From: a virus
Reading direction: 5' to 3' (one strand)
Virus record (IMG/VR): IMGVR_UViG_3300045241_000157
Coordinates: 1 to 38,656 of that record
DNA length: 38,656 nucleotides
In this document: positions 11,759 through 37,421 of the stretch, piece by piece
How the letters are laid out: every line of letters begins with the position of its first letter
Numbering within the stretch: the first letter of the stretch is position 1
Notes under the pieces: generated by a model
The model's database searches: none
Told to the model about the DNA's origin: nothing
The model's input: the letters and a program-made list of their open reading frames with translations, nothing else
Made by a program: the position numbers and the translations under genes

Positions 11759-11995
11759 ATGGACAGTCAGAAGGTCATGCTGCCGGTGCGAGATCAGCTC
11801 CGCCTCGGCTGGAACATCGTCAGGTGGTTCGTCTGGCCGCGCGGTGATCCAGTCTGGATGAACATCACGATGCTCCTGTCCGTCGCCGCCGGGGCTATCG
11901 GGCTGTCGTACGGCACCCTGTGGCCGCTGTGCGGCACCATCGCCATCGCGGTGGCCTGCAACGTCTACGGTCACAGATCCAGGGTCAAGCCGTGA
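11759..11995 (+). CDS. Small membrane protein coupled to the integrase, 78 aa
   Basis: An ATG at 11759 gives MDSQKVMLPVRDQLRLGW; upstream in-frame ATGs at 11699 and 11732 are alternatives. The C-terminal half has two hydrophobic segments (about residues 33-50 and 53-70). Its TGA overlaps the integrase GTG start (GTGA at 11992-11995), so int is probably translated by coupling. I know no function; the arrangement is the noteworthy part. Confidence 0.6.
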   Translation: MDSQKVMLPVRDQLRLGWNIVRWFVWPRGDPVWMNITMLLSVAAGAIGLSYGTLWPLCGTIAIAVACNVYGHRSRVKP

Positions 11996-13224
11996 CCGGG
12001 AAGCCGGCCGGGGCGCGGCCCAACCGCGAAGGCAAACCCTGGAAACGCGCCGACGGCCGCTGGCAAGCCCGCGCCTACCCGCCCGGCGGCGGCATCGACA
12101 CCCGCCCCCGCTACGTCTACGGCAAGACCCGCCGCGAAGCCATGGACAAACGCGCCGACCTCGAGGCGACCCTGGCGCGCGGCATCCCGTCGGACTCCGG
12201 GCAGACCGTCGCCGACGCGTTCGCCCGCTGGACCGGCGAGACGCTGCCCCAGTACGTCCGCGCCGGCCACATGACGCAATCCACGGCGGACTCCTACGCC
12301 AGCAACGCCCGCCTCCACATCCTGTCCCGCAAAGACGGCCTCGGCCACATCAGGCTCACCGCCCTGTCCGCCGCCGCCGTCCGCGACTGGCAGGACCGCC
12401 TCTCCCGCAAGCCCGCCGCCCGGACGCCCCCCAAGCGCCGCAAGAACGGGCCGCCGCCGAAACCCCTGTCACCCCGCACCGTCGCCTACTGCCGCGAGAT
12501 CCTCCGCAAGATGATCGCCGACGCGATCCGCGACGAGACCGCCGGCCTGGAACGCAACGTGGTCGACCTCGTGAAACCGCCGAAGAAACGCCCGGCCGAA
12601 CCGGTCATCCTCACCCCCGGCGAGGTGTCCGCGCTCCTCACCGCGATGGGCGAGGACCGGTGGTGGTGCTACTGGCTCCTCGCGTTCCTGCTCGGGTTCC
12701 GGCGCAGCGAGGGCCTCGGCATGCGGTGGGACGACCTCGACCTCGACCGGCGGATCTGGACGCCGGGGCTGCAGGTGCAGCGGCAGGGCGGGAAGCTGAT
12801 AGCGCGGGGACTGAAGACCGCGGCGTCCCGCGGCCTGGTGCCGCTCCCCGACGCGGCCGTGGAGGCGCTGGGCCGGCAGCTGGCGGAGCAGCGGCGCCAG
12901 CGGATGGCCGCGCCCACGTGGGCCGACCTCGGCCTCGTATTCACCACGAACCTCGGCACGGCGGTCGAGCCGCGGAACATCAACCGGCAATGGGAGAAAG
13001 TCCGCGCCCGCGCGGGCATCCAGCGGCCGGCGCGGCTGCATGACCTGCGGCACGCGTGCGCGTCGTACGCCCTCGCCGGCGGCGCGGACCTGAAGACGGT
13101 GCAGCGGATGCTGCGGCACGCGCGGATTTCCACGACGCAGGTGTACGTGCACGCGCTGGAGGACGTGCCGCGGGCCGGGGCGGACGTGATGGACCGGGTA
13201 CTCGAAGGACTGCGCCAGCGCTAG
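11992..13224 (+). CDS. int: Tyrosine-type integrase, 410 aa
   Basis: The GTG at 11992 overlaps the preceding stop. Residues 1-60 form the arm-binding-type N-terminus (GRWQARAYPPGGG, YGKTRREAMDKRADLEA). Residues about 70-200 are the core-binding SAM-like domain. The catalytic domain carries the expected set: Arg in LLGFRRSEGLGMRWDDLDLD, Lys in LKTAASRGLVPLP, H-x-x-R in LHDLRHACASYAL, the second His in MLRHARISTTQ, and Tyr in VYVHALED. The enzyme recombines attP with the bacterial tRNA target. The matching attP lies about 1.6 kb downstream, at 14730-14970. Confidence 0.95.
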   Translation: MTGKPAGARPNREGKPWKRADGRWQARAYPPGGGIDTRPRYVYGKTRREAMDKRADLEATLARGIPSDSGQTVADAFARWTGETLPQYVRAGHMTQSTADSYASNARLHILSRKDGLGHIRLTALSAAAVRDWQDRLSRKPAARTPPKRRKNGPPPKPLSPRTVAYCREILRKMIADAIRDETAGLERNVVDLVKPPKKRPAEPVILTPGEVSALLTAMGEDRWWCYWLLAFLLGFRRSEGLGMRWDDLDLDRRIWTPGLQVQRQGGKLIARGLKTAASRGLVPLPDAAVEALGRQLAEQRRQRMAAPTWADLGLVFTTNLGTAVEPRNINRQWEKVRARAGIQRPARLHDLRHACASYALAGGADLKTVQRMLRHARISTTQVYVHALEDVPRAGADVMDRVLEGLRQR

Positions 13225-23004: not shown

Positions 23005-23105
23005 GCCCGCACGCTACGTAACCGGGAGACGGAAGGCAAGCACCGCCGGTCGCCCGTGGAGGGATATCAGCTGTGTCGTGGCCATATCCGGGCGACCGGC
23101 GGTCG

Positions 23106-23177
23106 CGCGCCGGCGAGGACTCGAACCTCGGACCATCCCCTAAGGTGGGGCTGCTCAATCCACTGAGCTACCAGCGC
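23106..23177 (-). tRNA. tRNA, probably Lys(CUU), with an atypical anticodon arm
   Basis: The acceptor GCGCTGG/CCGGCGC, D-arm GCTC-AGTGGATT-GAGC and T-arm CGAGG-TTCGAGT-CCTCG pair well and are in standard order; the discriminator is G and CCA is not encoded. The anticodon arm GCCCC-ACCTTAG-GGGAT gives anticodon CUU, but position 33 is C instead of the near-universal U and there is a C-A mismatch in the stem. Pairing CCCC with GGGG instead leaves a 6-base loop. The decoding identity is therefore uncertain. It lies in the MerR-RyR unit. Confidence 0.75.
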
Positions 23178-23846: not shown

Positions 23847-24377
23847 CTAGGCCAGCGCCCGGACAATGGCGATGAACAGCCGGTCCTTCAGCTGCTGCTC
23901 GGCCGGCAGCTCGCCGAACGGCAGCAGCGTCGGATGCGTCTTCCGCTCCCGGTCCTTCACCTCGCCGTAGGTCCACCCGTCGGCGCGCATCCGCTCCGCC
24001 CACAACTCGTGCGAGCGCTCCGCGGTCAGGTCCGGGTTCCGCAAGACCTCCTGCACTCCGGCGGTCGCCTGCTTCACCTGATAGTCCGGGGCCTCATCCC
24101 ACGGCGGCGACGGCGCCGGGTCGCCCTGGACGATCTGCAGCTCCCGGTTCGCGGCGTGGACGACCCGCGCGATGTCCTCCGCGGTAACGTCGTGCTCGCC
24201 GAGATTGCGGCGCCGCAGCTGGGCGCGCAGCGAGGTCATGTCCCACCGGAAGTGCCCGCCGGCGGTGCGCTCGGCGGGCGTCACGATCCCGGCCGCTGTC
24301 CACCGGGTCAGCGTGGCCGAGCTGATGCCGAGCGCGCGGGCAGCGTCCCCCGTCGTGATGTAGCGGCTCATAGCCAC
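23847..24377 (-). CDS. MerR-type HTH fused to a RyR domain, 176 aa
   Basis: The GTG at 24377 has GAGGAG at 9-base spacing. Residues 4-60 are a MerR-like winged helix (RYITTGDAARALGISSATLT, RWTAAGIVTPAERTAGGHFR). Residues about 117-175 match the RyR repeat: SHELWAERMRADGWTYGEVK, then KTHPTLLPFGELPAEQQLKD and RLFIAIVRAL. In eukaryotes RyR repeats are parts of the ryanodine receptor; in bacteria and phages they are stand-alone or fused, with proposed roles in binding nucleotide-derived ligands. The fusion therefore looks like a ligand-sensing transcription factor. It is divergent from the transfer-type operon over three TGCAWCGWTT sites and probably regulates both directions. Confidence 0.82.
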   Translation of the reverse strand: MAMSRYITTGDAARALGISSATLTRWTAAGIVTPAERTAGGHFRWDMTSLRAQLRRRNLGEHDVTAEDIARVVHAANRELQIVQGDPAPSPPWDEAPDYQVKQATAGVQEVLRNPDLTAERSHELWAERMRADGWTYGEVKDRERKTHPTLLPFGELPAEQQLKDRLFIAIVRALA

Positions 24378-24781: not shown

Positions 24782-24940
24782 GTGACAGAGCAGGACCCGC
24801 CCGTGCCCGCCGAGACTGCCATCGCCGAGGAGGCGAACCTCACCCGCGATGTGCTGAGGCAGTACTGGGCGCTCCGCGACCTCACCGGGGCCGCCGCGGA
24901 GGTCGCCGGCCGCATGTTCGACCTCCCGGAGGACGCATGA
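24782..24940 (+). CDS. Hypothetical microprotein, 52 aa
   Basis: A GTG at 24782 follows GGAGG at 7-base spacing. The product MTEQDPPVPAETAIAEEANL continues into TRDVLRQYWALRDLTGAAAE, an acidic, helical protein. Its stop overlaps the ATG of the FtsK-like gene (ATGA at 24937-24940) and its last codons carry that gene's GGAGG, so the two are coupled. Confidence 0.65.
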   Translation: MTEQDPPVPAETAIAEEANLTRDVLRQYWALRDLTGAAAEVAGRMFDLPEDA

Positions 24941-26682
24941 GCAAGCCCAGCGCCGTGGTGCTGCTCTGGCGGTGGCACAGCGGTCACACGATTTCCGGCC
25001 GGTACATCACGAACGCGACGTGGACGATGCCGTCCCGCGGCGACCACCCGGTCATCGGGCACCCGACCGGCCATGCGGTCCGCTGGCATCACATGCCCCG
25101 GATGTACCGGGCCGGGATCCGCACCGGGACGTCCCTCCTCCTCCTCGCGGTCGCGTGGGGGCTGCATGCGGCGTTCTGGGCCACCGTCAACACCCTCGCC
25201 GCCGTGACCCTGACCGGTGCCGGGTTCGGCGGATGGTGGCTGTACCGGCGGGTCCTGCGGTGGCAGCACCGGCGCCGCTGGGTCCGCCCCCTGCACCGCG
25301 CGCTGACCCCCGTCCTCGGCGCCCCGCCCCGGCTGGAGATCGAACCCGACCGGTCCAGGGTCATCGTCGGCGTCCCCGTCGAGTTCACCGGCTCTGACAA
25401 GGAGCGGGAAGCGGTCACCCGCGCCGTCACGACGAAGCTGGCCATCGAGGCTCCCGACGCGTCCTGGCGGCTGCACGGGAAGAACCCGCAGGTCACGTTC
25501 ACGCAGAGTGAGCCGCCCCCGTCCTGCGTCTCCTGGGACGACATGGCCGCCGCTGTCCATGCCGCCGCCGCGAACGAGCTCGTATTCGGATCGGGCAAGC
25601 GCGCCGCGCTCGTGAAGGCGTCCTATTCCGACAGCCCGCACGTCGCCATCCCCGGCGGGTCAGGAGGCGGCAAGTCGAACCTGGCGGCGTTCCTGCTGCT
25701 CCAGGAGATGATGCGCGGGTCGCTGATCATCAACCTGGACCCCAAGTGGATCTCGCACTTGTGGATGCAGGACCTGCCGAACGTCATCAACGCCCACGAC
25801 ATCCCCGACCTGCACCTCGCGCTGACCTGGCTCGGCGGCGAGCTGCTGCGCCGCACCAAGGCTGCCTACTACTCCGCGGGCGGCACCGGCCGGGTCCGCG
25901 GCAACGTCGGCAACCGGATCATCGTGCTGTGCGAGGAGCTGAACTACGGCATGCCGGGCCTGAAGGACTACTGGCGGGAGACCCGCTCCAAGGAGGACGC
26001 GAAGCAGTCCCCGGCGATCGCGGCTCTGTCGGGGCTGTCCTGCGCGGGCCGCGCCAGCGACATCCATGAGTGGCTGATAGCCCAGCTGCTGACGGTCGCC
26101 TCGACCGGGGTCAGTGACTCCACGATCCGTACCAACGCCGGCATCAAGGCCATGGCCCGCTGGGACCCGCCCGGCTGGGCCATGGCCGTCGGGAAGCACG
26201 TCCCGATGCCGGCGCAGAACACCACCCCCGGCCGGATACAGGTAGTGACCGGCGACGGCGTGCGGGAAACCCAGGTTCCCTACCTGCACCTCGACGACAA
26301 GGACGAGGCCGTCGCCGAGGAAGCCGTCCGGTGGGCGCGGGACCTGGCTGTTTCGGGCACCGTCGCGCAGATCCCCTCCGGGCCCGGAGGCGTTCCGCGG
26401 CAACTGTGGCCCGCTAGCGTCCTACGACAAGCACCGCTCGCTCTTCCCCCAGGCCAGGGCGCTGGGACGCCTAAGACTGTCATACCGCCGGCGGACCTGA
26501 CGATCGCTGAGGCGGTCGGGGACGGCATCTTCGGCGAGCTTGATCTCGGTGCGGCACGCCGCCGCGTCAACCGTGCCGGGATCAAGCGGGCCGGCGTGCG
26601 CGGCGACGGGTCATTCACCTACGCCCGCGCGGACCTGGCAGATGCAGCCCGTAACCGCCGCGGGAAAGGAGATGCGGCATGA
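24937..26682 (+). CDS. FtsK/SpoIIIE (TraB)-type DNA translocase, 581 aa
   Basis: Residues about 62-105 contain two transmembrane helices (SLLLLAVAWGLHAAFWATVN and a following segment), so the protein is membrane-anchored. The ATPase domain follows: Walker A HVAIPGGSGGGKSNLAAF near residue 237, NLDPKWISHLW after it, and Walker B-like RIIVLCEELNYG near 327, where E-E replaces the usual D-E. The C-terminal 100 residues include a short wHTH-like part (ADLTIAEAVGDGIF, LGAARRRVNRAGIKRAGVRG) in the position of the gamma domain that reads clt/FRS-type octamers. In Streptomyces plasmids such proteins move double-stranded DNA between hyphae. Here it is embedded in a phage genome next to a DUF2637 gene. 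Confidence 0.88.
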   Translation: MSKPSAVVLLWRWHSGHTISGRYITNATWTMPSRGDHPVIGHPTGHAVRWHHMPRMYRAGIRTGTSLLLLAVAWGLHAAFWATVNTLAAVTLTGAGFGGWWLYRRVLRWQHRRRWVRPLHRALTPVLGAPPRLEIEPDRSRVIVGVPVEFTGSDKEREAVTRAVTTKLAIEAPDASWRLHGKNPQVTFTQSEPPPSCVSWDDMAAAVHAAAANELVFGSGKRAALVKASYSDSPHVAIPGGSGGGKSNLAAFLLLQEMMRGSLIINLDPKWISHLWMQDLPNVINAHDIPDLHLALTWLGGELLRRTKAAYYSAGGTGRVRGNVGNRIIVLCEELNYGMPGLKDYWRETRSKEDAKQSPAIAALSGLSCAGRASDIHEWLIAQLLTVASTGVSDSTIRTNAGIKAMARWDPPGWAMAVGKHVPMPAQNTTPGRIQVVTGDGVRETQVPYLHLDDKDEAVAEEAVRWARDLAVSGTVAQIPSGPGGVPRQLWPASVLRQAPLALPPGQGAGTPKTVIPPADLTIAEAVGDGIFGELDLGAARRRVNRAGIKRAGVRGDGSFTYARADLADAARNRRGKGDAA

Positions 26683-33212: not shown

Positions 33213-33836
33213 GTGAGACGCTTGGCCGACCCGGCGGACCTCGTACGCGAGGCGTGTGACCTGCTCGCCGGGCTGATGCCGCGCCTCGCCGCCGAACTCG
33301 CCGAGCAGTCCGCCGCCGGGCCCGCGCCCGGCATGACGACCCGGGCCGCCGACACCCCCGAACCGTGGAACGCCCCCGCCGGCCGCGCCCTGATGGACGG
33401 CCACGAAGGCGTCCGCCGCCTCGAAGCCGTCCTGAAATACATGGTGGCGGGTCATCCCGGACGCCGCCGCGGCGGCAGCGCGGGCAACACCATGGCCGCG
33501 CTGACCGCGATCCCGCGCCTGGCCGCGGGGCTGCCCGACGATGTTGAGGCGAGCTCCGTCCGCTACCTCGAGCACCTGATAAACGCGGCCCGCGCCGTCC
33601 AGGCCATCGACGAGGCGGAACGGTGGCGCCCCGTCCCGTCCCGCCCGTGCCCGTACTGCCGCTGCTACTTCCTGCAGGTCCTGGAAGACGCGCGCGGGCA
33701 GCCCGCCGGGCGTGTCAGGTGCCTCGGGCACCTGGAACCGGGCGTGCCGTGCCGGGCGGCGTGGGCCAGCCTCGCCGAGATCGCGCAGGACCTGGAACGC
33801 GCCGGGACCGCACAGGACCTGGAGGAGGCGGGCTGA
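33213..33836 (+). CDS. Helical protein with C-terminal zinc ribbon, 207 aa
   Basis: A GTG at 33213 follows the previous stop closely. Residues 1-135 are helical (ADLVREACDLLAGLMPRLAA, RYLEHLINAARAVQAIDEAE), and residues about 144-180 hold CPYCRCYFLQVL and VRCLGHLEPGVPC, a four-cysteine ribbon. It resembles conserved actinophage proteins located left of the terminase region. Function unknown. Its TGA overlaps the next ATG. Confidence 0.65.
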   Translation: MRRLADPADLVREACDLLAGLMPRLAAELAEQSAAGPAPGMTTRAADTPEPWNAPAGRALMDGHEGVRRLEAVLKYMVAGHPGRRRGGSAGNTMAALTAIPRLAAGLPDDVEASSVRYLEHLINAARAVQAIDEAERWRPVPSRPCPYCRCYFLQVLEDARGQPAGRVRCLGHLEPGVPCRAAWASLAEIAQDLERAGTAQDLEEAG

Positions 33837-34111
33837 TGCCGCTCTACAGAAAGCGGCCCGTCGTCATCGAAGCGCGCCAGGTCACCGTCCATGAGCACGC
33901 GGATATCGCTGACTGGTGCGGCGGAACCGCGACCTACAAGTACATCGAGGGCGTGCAGGTACCGGATGGCGTCCTGATCAAGACGCTCGAAGGCGTAATG
34001 AGCGCTCAGCATGGCGACTGGATCATCAAGGGCGTGCAGGGCGAGTTCTACCCGTGCAAGCCGGACATCTTCACCGCCACCTACGAACTGGCAAGCGACG
34101 ATGGCGCTTAG
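33836..34111 (+). CDS. PGDYG-type conserved phage protein, 91 aa
   Basis: MPLYRKRPVVIEARQVTVHE, then VLIKTLEGVMSAQHGDWIIK and GVQGEFYPCKPDIFTATYE are the hallmarks of a small conserved family spread among phages of many hosts (R-K-R-P-V-V-I-E-A, G-D-W-I-I-x-G-V, E-x-Y-P-x-x-P-D-I-F-x-x-T-Y-E). Function is not established. It is coupled to the upstream gene (ATGA-like overlap). Confidence 0.8.
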   Translation: MPLYRKRPVVIEARQVTVHEHADIADWCGGTATYKYIEGVQVPDGVLIKTLEGVMSAQHGDWIIKGVQGEFYPCKPDIFTATYELASDDGA

Positions 34112-34328: not shown

Positions 34329-34547
34329 ATGGAGTTCGCCCGGGAAGCCCTCGCCCCGAAGCCGCTCGGCCAGCTGCCGGACAGCACCATGCTCGCCGTC
34401 GCATCGGTGCCCGGCAAGCATCCCGAGGAATGGCGGGAAGCCTGGCCGCTGTGGATGGCGTACCCGCACGCCGCCGGCGCGGTCTACGCCGTGGAGATGA
34501 CCGCCGCCCAGCTCCGCGCCCGCCTCGCCGACATGGGCAGCAGGTGA
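34329..34547 (+). CDS. Hypothetical protein, 72 aa
   Basis: The ATG at 34329 gives MEFAREALAPKPLGQLPDST, then EWREAWPLWMAYPHAAGAVY. In-frame upstream starts exist (ATG at 34197, 116 aa), which would overlap the preceding gene. It ends in the first TGACCATG junction of the array. No family recognised. Confidence 0.5.
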   Translation: MEFAREALAPKPLGQLPDSTMLAVASVPGKHPEEWREAWPLWMAYPHAAGAVYAVEMTAAQLRARLADMGSR

Positions 34548-34549
34548 CC

Positions 34550-34726
34550 ATGATCCGCACCGAGACCTACCTTGACGGCCGCCTGGTCAAGGAGATCGAC
34601 CAGGTAGACGTCATGAGCGCGCAGACCCTGCGGCATGAGTACATCGACGGCCGCCACCGCTGGCTGCTCGACGGCACCGAGGTCACCGAAGGCGAGGCCC
34701 TCGCCGCGATGGACGGCCATGGCTGA
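34550..34726 (+). CDS. Array gene: hypothetical, 58 aa
   Basis: The gene starts in the first TGACCATG junction. MIRTETYLDGRLVKEIDQVD then LRHEYIDGRHRWLLDGTEVT and EGEALAAMDG is a small beta-rich protein with strand-turn repeats (YLDGRLV, YIDGRHRWLLDG). No family recognised. It overlaps the next start by 8 bases. Confidence 0.6.
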   Translation: MIRTETYLDGRLVKEIDQVDVMSAQTLRHEYIDGRHRWLLDGTEVTEGEALAAMDGHG

Positions 34727-35051
34727 GCTCGCTGTCACAGACGGCATGCCGCCGCCTGACGACCTGCCGCGCGGCGAGTGCATCTGCACCCGGATGGAAG
34801 ACGGCACCATCCGCGTCGACCATGCCGACCCGCGCATCCTGATCAGCGGCGAACTGCTGAACGCCACCATGGGCATCCGGAACGGCCTGCGCCCGCTTGG
34901 GTGCGTGCTGCTGGACCTGACAGGCTGCCTGCCCGGCCATGGCTACGTGGGCGCGGTCCTGCACATCCGTGCTGTCAACCGGCAGGTCGTCTACCGCATC
35001 ACGGACTACGTGCCTCGCATCCGCGGCTACGTCGGCGAATGGCCGGACTGA
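34719..35051 (+). CDS. Array gene: hypothetical, 110 aa
   Basis: MAELAVTDGMPPPDDLPRGE and ICTRMEDGTIRVDHADPRIL continue to a hydrophobic region near residues 66-92. HIRAVNRQVVYRITDYVPRI and YVGEWPD form the end. It is the largest non-HNH protein of the array. Function unknown; it ends at the second TGACCATG. Confidence 0.6.
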   Translation: MAELAVTDGMPPPDDLPRGECICTRMEDGTIRVDHADPRILISGELLNATMGIRNGLRPLGCVLLDLTGCLPGHGYVGAVLHIRAVNRQVVYRITDYVPRIRGYVGEWPD

Positions 35052-35053
35052 CC

Positions 35054-35296
35054 ATGGCTGAAGGGTGGACCATAGCCGAAGCCGTCGAGCAGTTCGCCAG
35101 GACCGGCGTCCCGTTCGACGGCCTTGACCGGGTCATCCGCGCGCTGCCCGGCTTCCAGCGCATAGGCGAGGTCAGGAAGCCGCCCGGCAGCATGGGCGGA
35201 CGCGGCCCCGCCGTGTACGAAATCGCCGACCTCCAGCGCCTGCACTCCAAGCTGGCGGAATGGCTCGTGGTGCCTGGAGGCAGCCATGAGGAATGA
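35054..35296 (+). CDS. Array gene: small helical DNA-binding-like protein, 80 aa
   Basis: MAEGWTIAEAVEQFARTGVP, then FDGLDRVIRALPGFQRIGEV and GPAVYEIADLQRLHSKLAEW. The arrangement of helices followed by a G-R-G-P-A-x-Y-E wing suggests a winged-helix or MerR-like small protein, as found in actinophage accessory genes. It starts at the second junction without a ribosome site. The assignment is tentative. Confidence 0.6.
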   Translation: MAEGWTIAEAVEQFARTGVPFDGLDRVIRALPGFQRIGEVRKPPGSMGGRGPAVYEIADLQRLHSKLAEWLVVPGGSHEE

Positions 35297-35441
35297 CAAG
35301 ACGGATGCAGCCTGCCTGCGGGACGCGGCCTGGATCCTGCACACGCGGGCCAGGCGCGTCACGTTCACGCTCCGGGTCATCATCCGGGTGCTGCAGCGCA
35401 CGGCGGACAGGATTGAGCACCCGCCATCGGGAGACACATGA
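35286..35441 (+). CDS. Array-region gene: basic microprotein, 51 aa
   Basis: The ATG has its own GGAGG site, unlike most array genes. MRNDKTDAACLRDAAWILHT and RARRVTFTLRVIIRVLQRTA form one amphipathic basic helix. The TGA overlaps a further ATG (35438), whose frame runs 44 codons without recognisable features. Confidence 0.55.
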   Translation: MRNDKTDAACLRDAAWILHTRARRVTFTLRVIIRVLQRTADRIEHPPSGDT

Positions 35442-35581
35442 CGGCCGCCTCCTGGCCGGCGAGGTTGCCTTGCGCTATCCTCGCCCTAGGAGCAGTATGC
35501 CCGCGCCCCCGCCGGGCAGCTCCGTCCGCTAGCCCGCAAGCTAGCTCCCAACTCGTGCGCGGGCAGCAGTAGCGGTCATCA

Positions 35582-35618
35582 CAGCCCCGGCGTCAGGCCC
35601 CCCCGGACGCCGGGGCTG
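35582..35618 (+). terminator. Perfect 13-bp hairpin in the gap of the array
   Basis: CAGCCCCGGCGTC (35582-35594) pairs with GACGCCGGGGCTG (35606-35618) over an 11-base C-rich loop. It lies in a 197-base stretch (35442-35638) without a convincing gene; two GCTAGC palindromes are nearby (35528 and 35540). There is no T-run. The next gene follows behind GGAGG. Confidence 0.5.
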
Positions 35619-35638
35619 ACGCAATACCGGAGGTCACC

Positions 35639-35780
35639 ATGGACGAGACGCCTGCGGACTACTATCTGCTGCGCGTCCCCGCCGGCACCATGGTTGACGG
35701 TGCCGTCACCGAGCTCCAGCCTCGACGACCGCCGCACCATCACCGCCGAGATCCGCATCCCCGGCCCCGCGGTGCCGTGA
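35639..35780 (+). pseudogene. Array gene requiring a +1 frameshift
   Basis: The ATG at 35639 follows GGAGG and reads MDETPADYYLLRVPAGTMVD then GAVTE. From about 35715 the frame one base ahead reads SSLDDRRTITAEIRIPGPAV and ends exactly at the TGA of a TGACCATG junction (35778). The zero frame instead runs into nonsense-like Arg/His sequence and the next microgene. So the gene appears to have a one-base frameshift, natural, programmed or a sequence error. Confidence 0.5.
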
Positions 35781-35782
35781 CC

Positions 35783-35833
35783 ATGGTGCGCTACACGGTC
35801 CCGCGCACCGCCCACTGCGAGTCAGGAGCCTGA
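35783..35833 (+). CDS. Array gene: 16-aa microprotein
   Basis: Both ends are TGACCATG junctions. The product is MVRYTVPRTAHCESGA. It is too short to judge by content; the support is only the matching junctions. Confidence 0.35.
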   Translation: MVRYTVPRTAHCESGA

Positions 35834-35835
35834 CC

Positions 35836-35928
35836 ATGACGACCCTGCAGGCGTGGATCCTCATCGTGCTGGTCGGCATCATCGCGCTGGCCTACCTCAT
35901 CGGCCTGTTCCGCGGCCGGCCCGCCTGA
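35836..35928 (+). CDS. Array gene: single-helix membrane microprotein, 30 aa
   Basis: MTTLQAWILIVLVGIIALAY followed by LIGLFRGRPA is one transmembrane helix with a basic C-terminus, placing the C-terminus in the cytoplasm. It starts and ends at TGACCATG junctions. Confidence 0.6.
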   Translation: MTTLQAWILIVLVGIIALAYLIGLFRGRPA

Positions 35929-35930
35929 CC

Positions 35931-36161
35931 ATGGCCGAAGCGAGTCTTGACGCTGTGCTGCGGGCAGGGCGTGCCGTCCTTGACGCCTATGAACGCGGCG
36001 TGCTGCCCGTTGACGCGCGCTACCTGGCGGACACGCTGCGCATGGTGCTCGATACCGTAGATAAGCGCCCTGCGGACGATGCCGCGCCGTCCGATGAGGA
36101 CCGGATCCGCGACGCCATGGCCGAAGCCCAAGCCCACCCCGGCCGCACCATCACCCGCTGA
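35931..36161 (+). CDS. Array gene: helical protein, 76 aa
   Basis: MAEASLDAVLRAGRAVLDAY, then GVLPVDARYLADTLRMVLDT and a hydrophilic acidic C-terminus. It is all-helical, with no recognised family. Junctions on both sides are TGACCATG. Confidence 0.6.
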   Translation: MAEASLDAVLRAGRAVLDAYERGVLPVDARYLADTLRMVLDTVDKRPADDAAPSDEDRIRDAMAEAQAHPGRTITR

Positions 36162-36163
36162 CC

Positions 36164-36298
36164 ATGACCTGCGACTGGGGCGATTGCGACGAGATGGCTG
36201 AATCATGGCGCTTGTGGACGCCGCTAGGCGGCTGGCACCGGCCGATCTGGCTGCCGGTATGCAGGCGGCATTCAACCGGGCTTGTGCTGGCGGCCTGA
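36164..36298 (+). CDS. Array gene: Cys/Trp-rich microprotein, 44 aa
   Basis: MTCDWGDCDEMAESWRLWTP and a C-terminal PVCRRHS give C-x4-C and C-x2-H positions, a likely zinc site. This C-D-W-G-D-C opening recurs in short actinophage zinc proteins. It is flanked by TGACCATG junctions. Confidence 0.6.
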   Translation: MTCDWGDCDEMAESWRLWTPLGGWHRPIWLPVCRRHSTGLVLAA

Positions 36299-36300
36299 CC

Positions 36301-36423
36301 ATGGCGTCCTGGGCGTCTTGCAACCGCGTCGAGTACCAGTGCGGCTGCGTGAGCTGGCTCGAGCTGGAAGCCGGCGGGTGGGTGCGCAAGCTCTCGCCGT
36401 GCCAGCGCCACGCCCGGGTCTGA
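36301..36423 (+). CDS. Array gene: zinc-type microprotein, 40 aa
   Basis: MASWASCNRVEYQCGCVSWL and LSPCQRHARV hold C, C-x-C and C-x2-H positions with beta-strand spacing, like a half zinc ribbon. Junctions on both sides are TGACCATG. Confidence 0.6.
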   Translation: MASWASCNRVEYQCGCVSWLELEAGGWVRKLSPCQRHARV

Positions 36424-36425
36424 CC

Positions 36426-36494
36426 ATGGCCTGGGAGTTCCTGGTGATCGCCGCGCTCATCGCCCTGGCCGCCTGCCTGCGCCGCCGGATGTGA
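36426..36494 (+). CDS. Array gene: 22-aa membrane microprotein
   Basis: The whole product, MAWEFLVIAALIALAACLRR then RM, is a single transmembrane helix with three terminal arginines. It is the second such microprotein in the array after the 30-aa one at 35836. Confidence 0.5.
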   Translation: MAWEFLVIAALIALAACLRRRM

Positions 36495-36496
36495 CC

Positions 36497-36616
36497 ATGG
36501 CCCGCTTCGCGGACTACCTGCGCACGGCCGCCGCCTACCATGGCCCGCGCCGCCGCTTCTACTGGCTGCACATCATGGTCAGCTGGCGGCAGCTACGCCA
36601 CCGCTGGCCGGACTGA
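36497..36616 (+). CDS. Array gene: basic aromatic microprotein, 39 aa
   Basis: MARFADYLRTAAAYHGPRRR then FYWLHIMVSWRQLRHRWPD is a basic helix rich in Trp, Tyr and His. Family unknown. Both ends are TGACCATG junctions. Confidence 0.5.
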   Translation: MARFADYLRTAAAYHGPRRRFYWLHIMVSWRQLRHRWPD

Positions 36617-36618
36617 CC

Positions 36619-36648
36619 ATGGCCGCACGCGTGCGGTGGCGCATGTGA
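36619..36648 (+). CDS. Array ORF: 9 codons only
   Basis: Between a TGACCATG and the variant TGACAATG lies MAARVRWRM. Its R-V-R-W motif also begins the HNH gene at 37104 (MPARVRW), so this may be a deleted copy of that gene's start kept between junctions. Confidence 0.3.
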   Translation: MAARVRWRM

Positions 36649-36650
36649 CA

Positions 36651-36761
36651 ATGGCGACCATGACCTGGCGCTGCTGGCGGCACCGCAACCACCTAGTCCA
36701 GATACCGGGCGGCTGGCGGTGCAACCACCTCCGGTGCCTGCTGCACCTTCTGACTGGCTGA
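36651..36761 (+). CDS. Array gene: Cys/His-rich microprotein, 36 aa
   Basis: MATMTWRCWRHRNHLVQIPG then GWRCNHLRCLLHLLTG carries C-x2-H and C-x-H-x2-C positions, a possible zinc site. It starts at the variant junction TGACAATG. Confidence 0.5.
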   Translation: MATMTWRCWRHRNHLVQIPGGWRCNHLRCLLHLLTG

Positions 36762-36763
36762 CC

Positions 36764-36937
36764 ATGGTCGCTCCGCGCTGCTACGACTGCCTGACCGAGG
36801 ACGTCACCGTCAAGGTCACCGACGAGCTGGGCTTCGACCACTGGTTCTGCGCCGCCGACTGGGCGGCCGAGCAGGAGTTTCACGAGAAGGTCATGGCGAT
36901 GCTCGAGGACGCGGCGCGGGCACTGGAGCAGGACTGA
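36764..36937 (+). CDS. Array gene: small zinc-site helical protein, 57 aa
   Basis: MVAPRCYDCLTEDVTVKVTD has C-x2-C, then FDHWFCAADWAAEQEFHEKV adds H, C and H positions, followed by an acidic helix (MLEDAARALEQD). A treble-clef-like zinc unit plus helix is plausible. Flanked by TGACCATG junctions. Confidence 0.6.
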   Translation: MVAPRCYDCLTEDVTVKVTDELGFDHWFCAADWAAEQEFHEKVMAMLEDAARALEQD

Positions 36938-36939
36938 CC

Positions 36940-37101
36940 ATGGCCGTCATACCGTCAGCATTCTGGCTGGTCTACCTCCCGGCCGAGCATCGTGTCCACT
37001 TCTGGCTGCACCGTAGCTTGCACGAGCGTTGCTCCTGCAAGGGCACGGGCAGGCTCAACTTCGACAGGACACGGCTACTGCGGATGGTAGGCAGGGTCTG
37101 A
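36940..37101 (+). CDS. Array gene: hypothetical, 53 aa
   Basis: MAVIPSAFWLVYLPAEHRVH then FWLHRSLHERCSCKGTGRLN and a basic end. An H-C-x-C cluster sits near residue 35. No family recognised. The last TGACCATG of the array links it to the HNH gene. Confidence 0.55.
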   Translation: MAVIPSAFWLVYLPAEHRVHFWLHRSLHERCSCKGTGRLNFDRTRLLRMVGRV

Positions 37102-37103
37102 CC

Positions 37104-37421
37104 ATGCCTGCGCGCGTGCGGTGGCACGGGACCACGACACAACGCGGGTATGGCCATGGCCACCAGGCCGAGCGTGAGCGCCGCCTGCTGCTGTACCGGC
37201 CCGGCGACCTGTGCGCCCACTGCCACCAGCCGATGCCGTGGCCGGTGTCCGTAGCCCGCCGCTACATCGACCTGCCCCACGCGCCAGGCAAGACCGGCTA
37301 CCTGCCCGGCCTCGCCTGCCGCAGGTGCAACAGGCGCGACGGCCAGCGCATGACCACGGCGATCCTCGCCGCCAGGCGCGGCACCGTCCCCCGCACGTGG
37401 CAGTCATCGCGCGTATGGTGA
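37104..37421 (+). CDS. Terminase-associated HNH endonuclease, 105 aa
   Basis: MPARVRWHGTTTQRGYGHGH is the usual N-terminus of HNH proteins next to actinophage terminases, followed by the first C-x2-C (LCAHCHQPM), the strand and catalytic region YIDLPHAPGKTGYLPGL, and ACRRCNRRDG with the second C-x2-C. In this protein the expected D-H before the loop is L-P-H with D two residues earlier, so activity should be confirmed. Such HNH proteins act together with terminase in genome packaging. It sits about 1 kb before TerS. Confidence 0.8.
   Translation: MPARVRWHGTTTQRGYGHGHQAERERRLLLYRPGDLCAHCHQPMPWPVSVARRYIDLPHAPGKTGYLPGLACRRCNRRDGQRMTTAILAARRGTVPRTWQSSRVW

Follow-up and report, generated by a model that had tools for sequence, protein, structure and literature searches.

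Two kinds of described phage sequence are among the closest to the element reported here. Short conserved boundary sequences are short identical sequences lying between modules with differing neighbours; in the model given for them, recombination at the boundary keeps the genes intact, and they are missing at most mosaic boundaries of phages (PMC3029335). The start-associated sequences (SAS) and extended start-associated sequences (ESAS) of cluster K mycobacteriophages are short, non-palindromic, tied to start codons (mostly ATG) and found in one orientation, at non-structural genes of different families within one actinophage group; the covered part of the source describes no cassette exchange for them (PMC3203893). 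Here we report an array of small genes in IMG/VR virus record IMGVR_UViG_3300045241_000157, of which the entire 38,656 nucleotides (38.7 kb, 70% GC; hereafter the window) were analysed. The genes are linked by one recurring 8-base sequence, TGACCATG, hereafter the joint, which contains the stop codon of one gene and the start codon of the next. We regard the array as one variant of the phage mosaicism that involves short, conserved boundary sequences, and not as a categorically new system; with mosaic-boundary and start-associated sequences already described, the original prediction went too far in stating that no system of this kind was known.

The joint agrees with the boundary sequences in that the same short sequence stands beside differing neighbours in related genomes, and differs from them in that a single, unchanging 8-mer serves in about 100 pairings and doubles as a stop-start signal. 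It resembles the SAS in its shortness, its tie to start codons, its single orientation and its restriction to one phage group, and differs in composition and exact position: the SAS is a 13 bp sequence, GGGATAGGAGCCC, which embeds a Shine-Dalgarno (SD) sequence and whose copies, dispersed across the right half of the genome, precede the start by 3-7 bp (PMC3203893), whereas the joint comprises both the stop of the upstream gene and the start codon, lacks an SD and occurs in chains. In 44 joints with unrelated flanks, only the 8-mer was common, with a weak C before it (position -1) as the sole upstream preference and a weak GC after it. A short stop-start distance is also typical of coupling by termination-reinitiation, but the known couplings are mainly ATGA (-4) and TGATG (-1), in which nothing except stop and start is fixed (PMC6728339, PMC10666635). 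Integron cassettes resemble the array as promoterless small-gene strings in one orientation behind one leader; the array differs in having neither attC nor an adjacent integron integrase, and a joint of 8 bp. In T4-type phages, promoter/stem-loop (PeSL) cassettes with promoter-terminator motifs reportedly mediate modular shuffling, as Arbiol in 2010 and Comeau in 2014 are said to have described (cited in PMC4503421). There, too, a regulatory element doubles as the exchange boundary of small accessory genes, but the joint is a translational element within one apparent operon. Each joint leaves two untranslated bases, and the sole leader hairpin stands before the first gene.

In the window, TGACCATG was found 13 times on the + strand, all inside 34545-37106, with a single further copy on the - strand (36574). 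Dinucleotide shuffles of the full 38.7 kb gave 0.9 +/- 1.0 copies, and none of 100 shuffles reached 14. At least 11 of the 13 copies are true stop-start joints: TGA closes the upstream ORF, two untranslated C follow, and ATG (mostly ATGGC) opens the next ORF in another frame. Thus the 13 exact junctions and one variant of the original prediction were confirmed by coordinates and shuffles, as was the lack of a strong SD at most of them; the variant, TGACAATG at 36646, is probably incidental. The linkage of consecutive ORFs, which had been predicted for the whole array, is unbroken only over 35778-37099. Within 34545-35049 the two genes are linked by a different recurrent joint, an overlap (CCATGGCTGA, 34717). 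Over 35049-35778 come a gene that starts in an overlap (35286-35441), then the non-coding leader and, from 35639, a gene with its own SD. The predicted ORF size of 9 to 110 codons becomes 9 to 105 at joints, the 110-codon ORF (34719) starting at the overlap joint. The 9-codon ORF at 36619 is not a microgene but a truncated copy of the 5' end of the HNH gene (36614-36639).

The window phage is probably temperate and tailed, judging from its tyrosine integrase, GH25 lysin and tail genes, and its family comprises uncultured, high-GC phages, probably of actinobacterial hosts. The array lies at the right end of the window, ahead of the HNH and terminase genes. Relatives (L numbers) were collected by IMG/VR protein searches with genes of the array region, which in turn yielded 44 HNH-bearing loci; they are mostly contig fragments. 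Joints were counted in 41 HNH-bearing contigs, some of them near-identical, hence the counts are not independent. Upstream of HNH (139 kb) these contained 92 TGACCATG on the + strand and 9 on the reverse strand, and downstream (197 kb) only 2. CC accounted for 92 of about 120 occurrences of TGANNATG upstream of HNH, about three quarters. The control phages R4, phiC31 and Sarge had 0-2 copies of TGACCATG per strand. Neither in the window nor in the relatives, then, is the joint equally common outside the array, so that neither this control nor the comparison with relatives refuted the original prediction.

For gap statistics we used gene calls of 13 relatives made blind to the motif. Of 127 neighbour pairs in the array region, 24 had a gap of +2, against 4 of 311 elsewhere; among those 24, the two bases were CC in every pair and the stop was TGA in 23. 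No tight joint is commoner here than this +2 spacing, in which CC does not vary. At 83 of 102 joints (81%) the best coding frame upstream ended at the TGA, compared with 25% at other CCATG. At the overlap joints, CC preceded ATG and G followed it in 11 of 12, and the invariant unit may therefore be CCATGG with a stop on either side. In 19 cases TGACCATG was followed by a second TGA five bases on, and the upstream gene stopped at the first TGA in 16 and at the second in 2. The element would thus accept two upstream frames, and the third would fuse in frame: the combined form TGACCATGGCTGA has stops in both non-ATG frames, and an upstream gene would either end at the joint or be fused to its successor. 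The 3' end of the 30-aa gene reads ...gcATGACC in L067, gcGTGACC in L076 and gcCTGACCATGG in the window; as an idea only, we might speculate that TGACC derived from ATGACC-type overlap starts of former neighbours.

Outside the family we found no comparable array. In genome contigs, neither the HNH family nor that of the upstream gene had a relative. Among GenBank phages there was no match to the array DNA or to the gene at 33213, and HNH matches were limited to distant Arthrobacter-phage genes, of which one was inspected and had no such joints. Scanning IMG/VR for a three-joint pattern gave 60 matches without a comparable microgene array, mostly low-GC repeats. With a two-joint pattern, dense high-GC arrays were confined to this family (L135, L161 and known contigs); the other matches mostly had two copies and resembled chance or other repeats.

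The cassettes are reshuffled among relatives and the joint is conserved. The 102 joints, from 32 contigs, formed 65 left clusters and 77 right clusters in 97 distinct pairings, and at least two partners were seen for 10 of the 11 left ends that recurred and for 8 of the 9 recurring right starts. When a left flank was refound in a relative, its right neighbour was different in 48 of 52 cases, and exact TGACCATG was kept in 42 of these 48. In 13 arrays, 60 of 313 internal homology-block ends fell on CCATG in both sequences, where positions drawn at random would give 0.64, or 9.3 if drawn within blocks. Homology blocks also ended at overlap joints, which lack TGACC. The view that the ORFs are cassettes, whose content and order vary among relatives and whose homology blocks start and stop at the joint, was therefore borne out, and relatives with breakpoints exactly at the joint, proposed as a check, were found.

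Single genes show the same pattern. The 57-aa Cys gene has 90% DNA identity in L070 and L081, and every neighbour differs across the window and these two. The 110-aa gene has an early place in the array of the window and in those of L061 and L080, adjoins HNH in L077 and comes late in the L070 array. The 3' end encoding ...HPGRTITR (cgcaccatcaccagg) is followed, across the joint, by any of ten right starts. At joint 8 (36421) the pairing is retained in L061; at joint 9 (36492) the left partner is common to L061 and the right partner to L076. The HNH family, after joint 13 (37099), has many differing left neighbours in relatives.

We propose that the region is a plug-in cassette array, a hypervariable accessory operon in which the joint is both a reinitiation start box and an annealing microhomology, and we give this reading somewhat better than an even chance. 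A single promoter and leader and one strong SD would serve the first gene. At each joint the terminating ribosome would restart on the ATG two bases on (termination-reinitiation), and a cassette would therefore need no strong ribosome-binding site (RBS) of its own. The geometry of the joint and published reporter data point to such reinitiation: a +2 spacing reduced reinitiation in E. coli by 5, 20 and 70% in three gene pairs, which makes it plausible at TGA-CC-ATG, and stop-start distances of +2 or -8 both fall inside the range of about -8 to +10 nt (PMC10666635). SD pairing was -4.2 kcal/mol at joints, against -6.6 at long genes. As 8-10 bases are identical and in register at every joint (10-mer form TGACCATGGC), joint-to-joint recombination between co-infecting or resident relatives would leave both neighbours intact and correctly coupled, so that cassettes could be swapped, gained or lost singly. 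An argument for guidance of the crossover to the joint by homology is that the two C are exactly re-created between new partners. Strand annealing of the RecT/ERF type would be a suitable route; RecT or ERF is encoded in 9 of 19 family records, and it has been suggested that phage annealing proteins give rise to mosaicism through relaxed recombination (PMC2327257, PMC3945230). More tentatively, and with rather less than an even chance, the 8-mer may be a self-propagating "standard part" joint, a crossover point of an annealing recombinase at which selection for exchange would strengthen selection for reinitiation and vice versa, giving integron-like cassettes without a site-specific recombinase.

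Several results weigh against the plug-in cassette reading. SD pairing at joints was stronger than inside ORFs (-4.2 vs -2.5), and for this reason reinitiation is maybe not fully SD-free. The window's own record gave no match to RecT, ERF or YqaJ, and 8-10 bp is a very short stretch for an exchange directed by homology. Codon support was marginal for the ORFs at 35783, 36164, 36619, 36651 and 36940, several short ORFs had near-zero coding scores or were singletons, and a few dN/dS values, on few sites, exceeded 1. As to breakpoints, their number per site was 1.53 at joints, 0.94 at overlap joints, 0.82 at ATGA-type gene boundaries of the region, 0.56 at SD-led starts and 0.13 at random positions; boundaries of the ATGA type are thus enriched too, and non-start CCATG is not (0.05 per site). 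Breakpoints inside genes are also present, as in a chimera of L161. The junctions are accordingly candidates for recombination sites, as first predicted: cassette exchange at joints speaks for this and the enrichment at ATGA boundaries against it.

The same breakpoint distribution could be read in another way: the joint might be a translational start box only, with illegitimate or flank-homology exchange occurring anywhere and selection retaining intact, correctly spaced genes. Besides the enrichment at every kind of gene boundary and the in-gene chimeras, the CC before ATG at array starts with larger gaps (52%, vs 17% elsewhere, in the 13 relatives) fits such a box. Illegitimate exchange, however, would rarely remake exactly two C, yet most exchanged left flanks keep the exact joint, and the breakpoint density at joints is about twice that of ATGA boundaries. 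We consider the start box without joint-guided exchange a doubtful but realistic explanation. Because other gene boundaries are enriched and non-start CCATG is not, selection for intact genes probably contributes to the precision of the boundaries, and it may suffice.

Alternatively, CCATGG or TGACCATG might be a binding site of a phage or host regulator on DNA or mRNA, its translational position being secondary; such a role has been suggested for repeats like the ESAS and stoperators. The palindrome CCATGG occurred 19 times in the array against 1.2 expected, and 15 times against 11.4 in the rest, and it is also found at overlap and SD-led starts. But the element sits mostly on start codons in one orientation, its TGA is usually the upstream stop, and it contains the start codon, unlike the SAS; a regulator site is therefore improbable. 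Still less credible is a true integron-like array, in which a dedicated recombinase cuts and joins at the joint. The single cassette orientation, the single joint sequence, the fixed terminal HNH gene and the presence of a tyrosine integrase in the window would suit it. However, this integrase (11992-13224) lies more than 20 kb from the array and is needed by a temperate phage anyway, two untranslated bases per joint leave no space for an attC-like site outside the genes, and homology blocks end also at joints without TGACC. Since outside the 8-mer unrelated joints have neither conserved bases nor inverted repeats in common, a recombinase site of the att type is unlikely. Chance, base composition or over-called ORFs, for which 70% GC and TGA as the main stop might speak, has a negligible probability, being refuted by the shuffles, the reverse-strand and downstream controls, the phages phiC31, R4 and Sarge, and the family-wide recurrence with conserved ORFs.

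The features of the array are listed in Table 1. The leader was aligned in nine relatives (counterparts include L061 4060-4254 and L067 8238-8435); its strong hairpin lies directly before the SD of the first gene, and its pairing is kept with four covarying pairs. A search of Rfam with the leader gave no match. From its sequence, the leader could be a promoter plus attenuator. The first gene, at 35639, has a +1 frameshift relative to all compared relatives and reads through the TGA at 35778, where the ancestral frame of the family ends (35780); a mutation, a sequencing error and a programmed shift are all candidates. In L161, near 1151, a chimeric 28-aa ORF, MPRWLILLIAALVILAIA-EIRIPGPAAP, combines a membrane helix with the tail of the first gene.

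Codon scores, trained on long phage ORFs, favoured the stated frame in nearly every array ORF, with strong support at 34550, 34719, 35836 and 36764, and dN/dS between pairs of relatives was mostly 0.2-0.8. No family was found in Pfam or PHROGs for the cassette proteins tried. The HNH gene matched phrog_1808 (E 1.3e-7) and, just below the cut-off, Pfam Endonuclease_7 (E 1e-4). The AlphaFold model of the 110-aa protein failed, with a low-confidence fold (predicted local distance difference test, pLDDT, 53). The model of the 80-aa protein had only weak matches in PDB (E>1), MerR-type regulators included; it is possibly DNA-binding, on weak evidence. The copy of the HNH gene start at 36614 suggests that HNH formerly stood directly after the 39-aa gene and that cassettes were inserted later. 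The ATG at 36660, within GCGACCATG, may be a likelier start of the following Cys/His ORF than 36651. From the position and turnover of the cassettes, we assume that their products have an accessory, host- or defence-facing role.

Relatives of the 30-aa membrane microprotein were found in L067, L075, L076, L080 and L081. One place of the array is taken in turn by either of two one-helix membrane proteins of 30 aa that are not alike, MTTLQAWILIV... and MPRWLIFLIAI... (window 35836-35928; L061 4865-4957, L068 10306-10398, L070 3242-3334, L077 3792-3884). A C-terminal module (DEDRIRDAMAEAQ.HPGRTITR; window 36077-36158) is fused to differing N-terminal parts, and is also present in L070 (3502-3585), L077 (4065-4146), L078 (9045-9129) and L080 (5590-5669), showing exchange inside genes too.

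Table 1. Joints, leader and ORFs of the array region in the window (all on the + strand).
Feature	Position	Strand	Remarks
TGACCATG joints 1-13, 8 bp each	starts 34545, 35049, 35778, 35831, 35926, 36159, 36296, 36421, 36492, 36614, 36759, 36935, 37099	+	
72-aa ORF (MEFAREALAPKP...)	34329-34547	+	left partner of joint 1; 91% identical in L061
58-aa cassette	34550-34726	+	coding score 20 vs <5 in other frames; singleton in the family
Overlap joint CCATGGCTGA	34717-34726	+	gap -8; 12 occurrences in array regions of 13 relatives
110-aa cassette (MAELAVTDGMPPP...)	34719-35051	+	other positions and neighbours in L070, L077, L109, L111, L113
80-aa cassette	35054-35296	+	predicted alpha/beta fold; 10 relatives aligned; pLDDT 78
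51-aa cassette MRNDKTDAA...	35286-35441	+	dN/dS 0.16 vs L061, 0.39 vs L077
Non-coding leader	35442-35638	+	promoter-like region, hairpin (GCCCCGGCGTC...GACGCCGGGGC), SD GGAGG before first ATG
First operon gene	35639-35833	+	SD-led; compared with L061, L068, L074, L075, L077, L081
16-aa ORF MVRYTVPRTAHCESGA	35783-35833	+	shortened relative of a 33-aa ORF in L067
30-aa one-helix membrane microprotein (MTTLQAWILIVLVGII...)	35836-35928	+	87% in L067
76-aa cassette	35931-36161	+	C-terminal module (...DEDRIRDAMAEAQAHPGRTITR) on other N-termini in relatives
44-aa Cys/His ORF	36164-36298	+	singleton; weak coding score
40-aa Cys-rich cassette	36301-36423	+	block 36299-36501 has 93% DNA identity with L061 4958-5160
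22-aa one-helix membrane microprotein	36426-36494	+	82% in L061
39-aa cassette MARFADY...	36497-36616	+	91% DNA identity with L076 8926-9065
HNH start scar	36614-36639	+	23/26 identical to 37099-37124, 24/26 to L077
Variant TGACAATG	36646-36653	+	ends HNH remnant
36-aa Cys/His ORF	36651-36761	+	or 33 aa starting at 36660
57-aa Cys cassette (PRCYDCLTEDV...)	36764-36937	+	TGACCATG on both sides here and in L070, L081, L161
53-aa Cys/His ORF	36940-37101	+	singleton
HNH/endonuclease VII-like gene, 105 aa	37104-37421	+	closes array, before terminase; 44 relatives

A widespread phage protein (phrog_419, MxLYRKRPVVIEA...; 33836-34111) adjoins the array in the window, and proteins like it stand inside the array after TGACCATG or TAACCATG in L085 (5337) and L096 (655). 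Elsewhere in the window we found a 174-aa protein with a MerR-type helix-turn-helix and a RyR domain according to Pfam (23847-24371, - strand), an unusual combination in a phage; a 581-aa HerA/FtsK-like AAA protein of the early region (24937-26682), under the Pfam cut-off; and a tRNA-Lys (CTT) gene (23105-23177, - strand).

Whether phage mosaicism arises via short boundary homology or by blind recombination followed by selection is an old question. The family offers a defined 8-base joint in about 100 natural pairings, for which the two models predict differing outcomes of recoding. The array also provides a case from nature of operon assembly that is RBS-poor and order-independent, and a catalogue of dozens of phage microprotein families, some of only 22-30 aa, that would be missed by length-limited gene callers.

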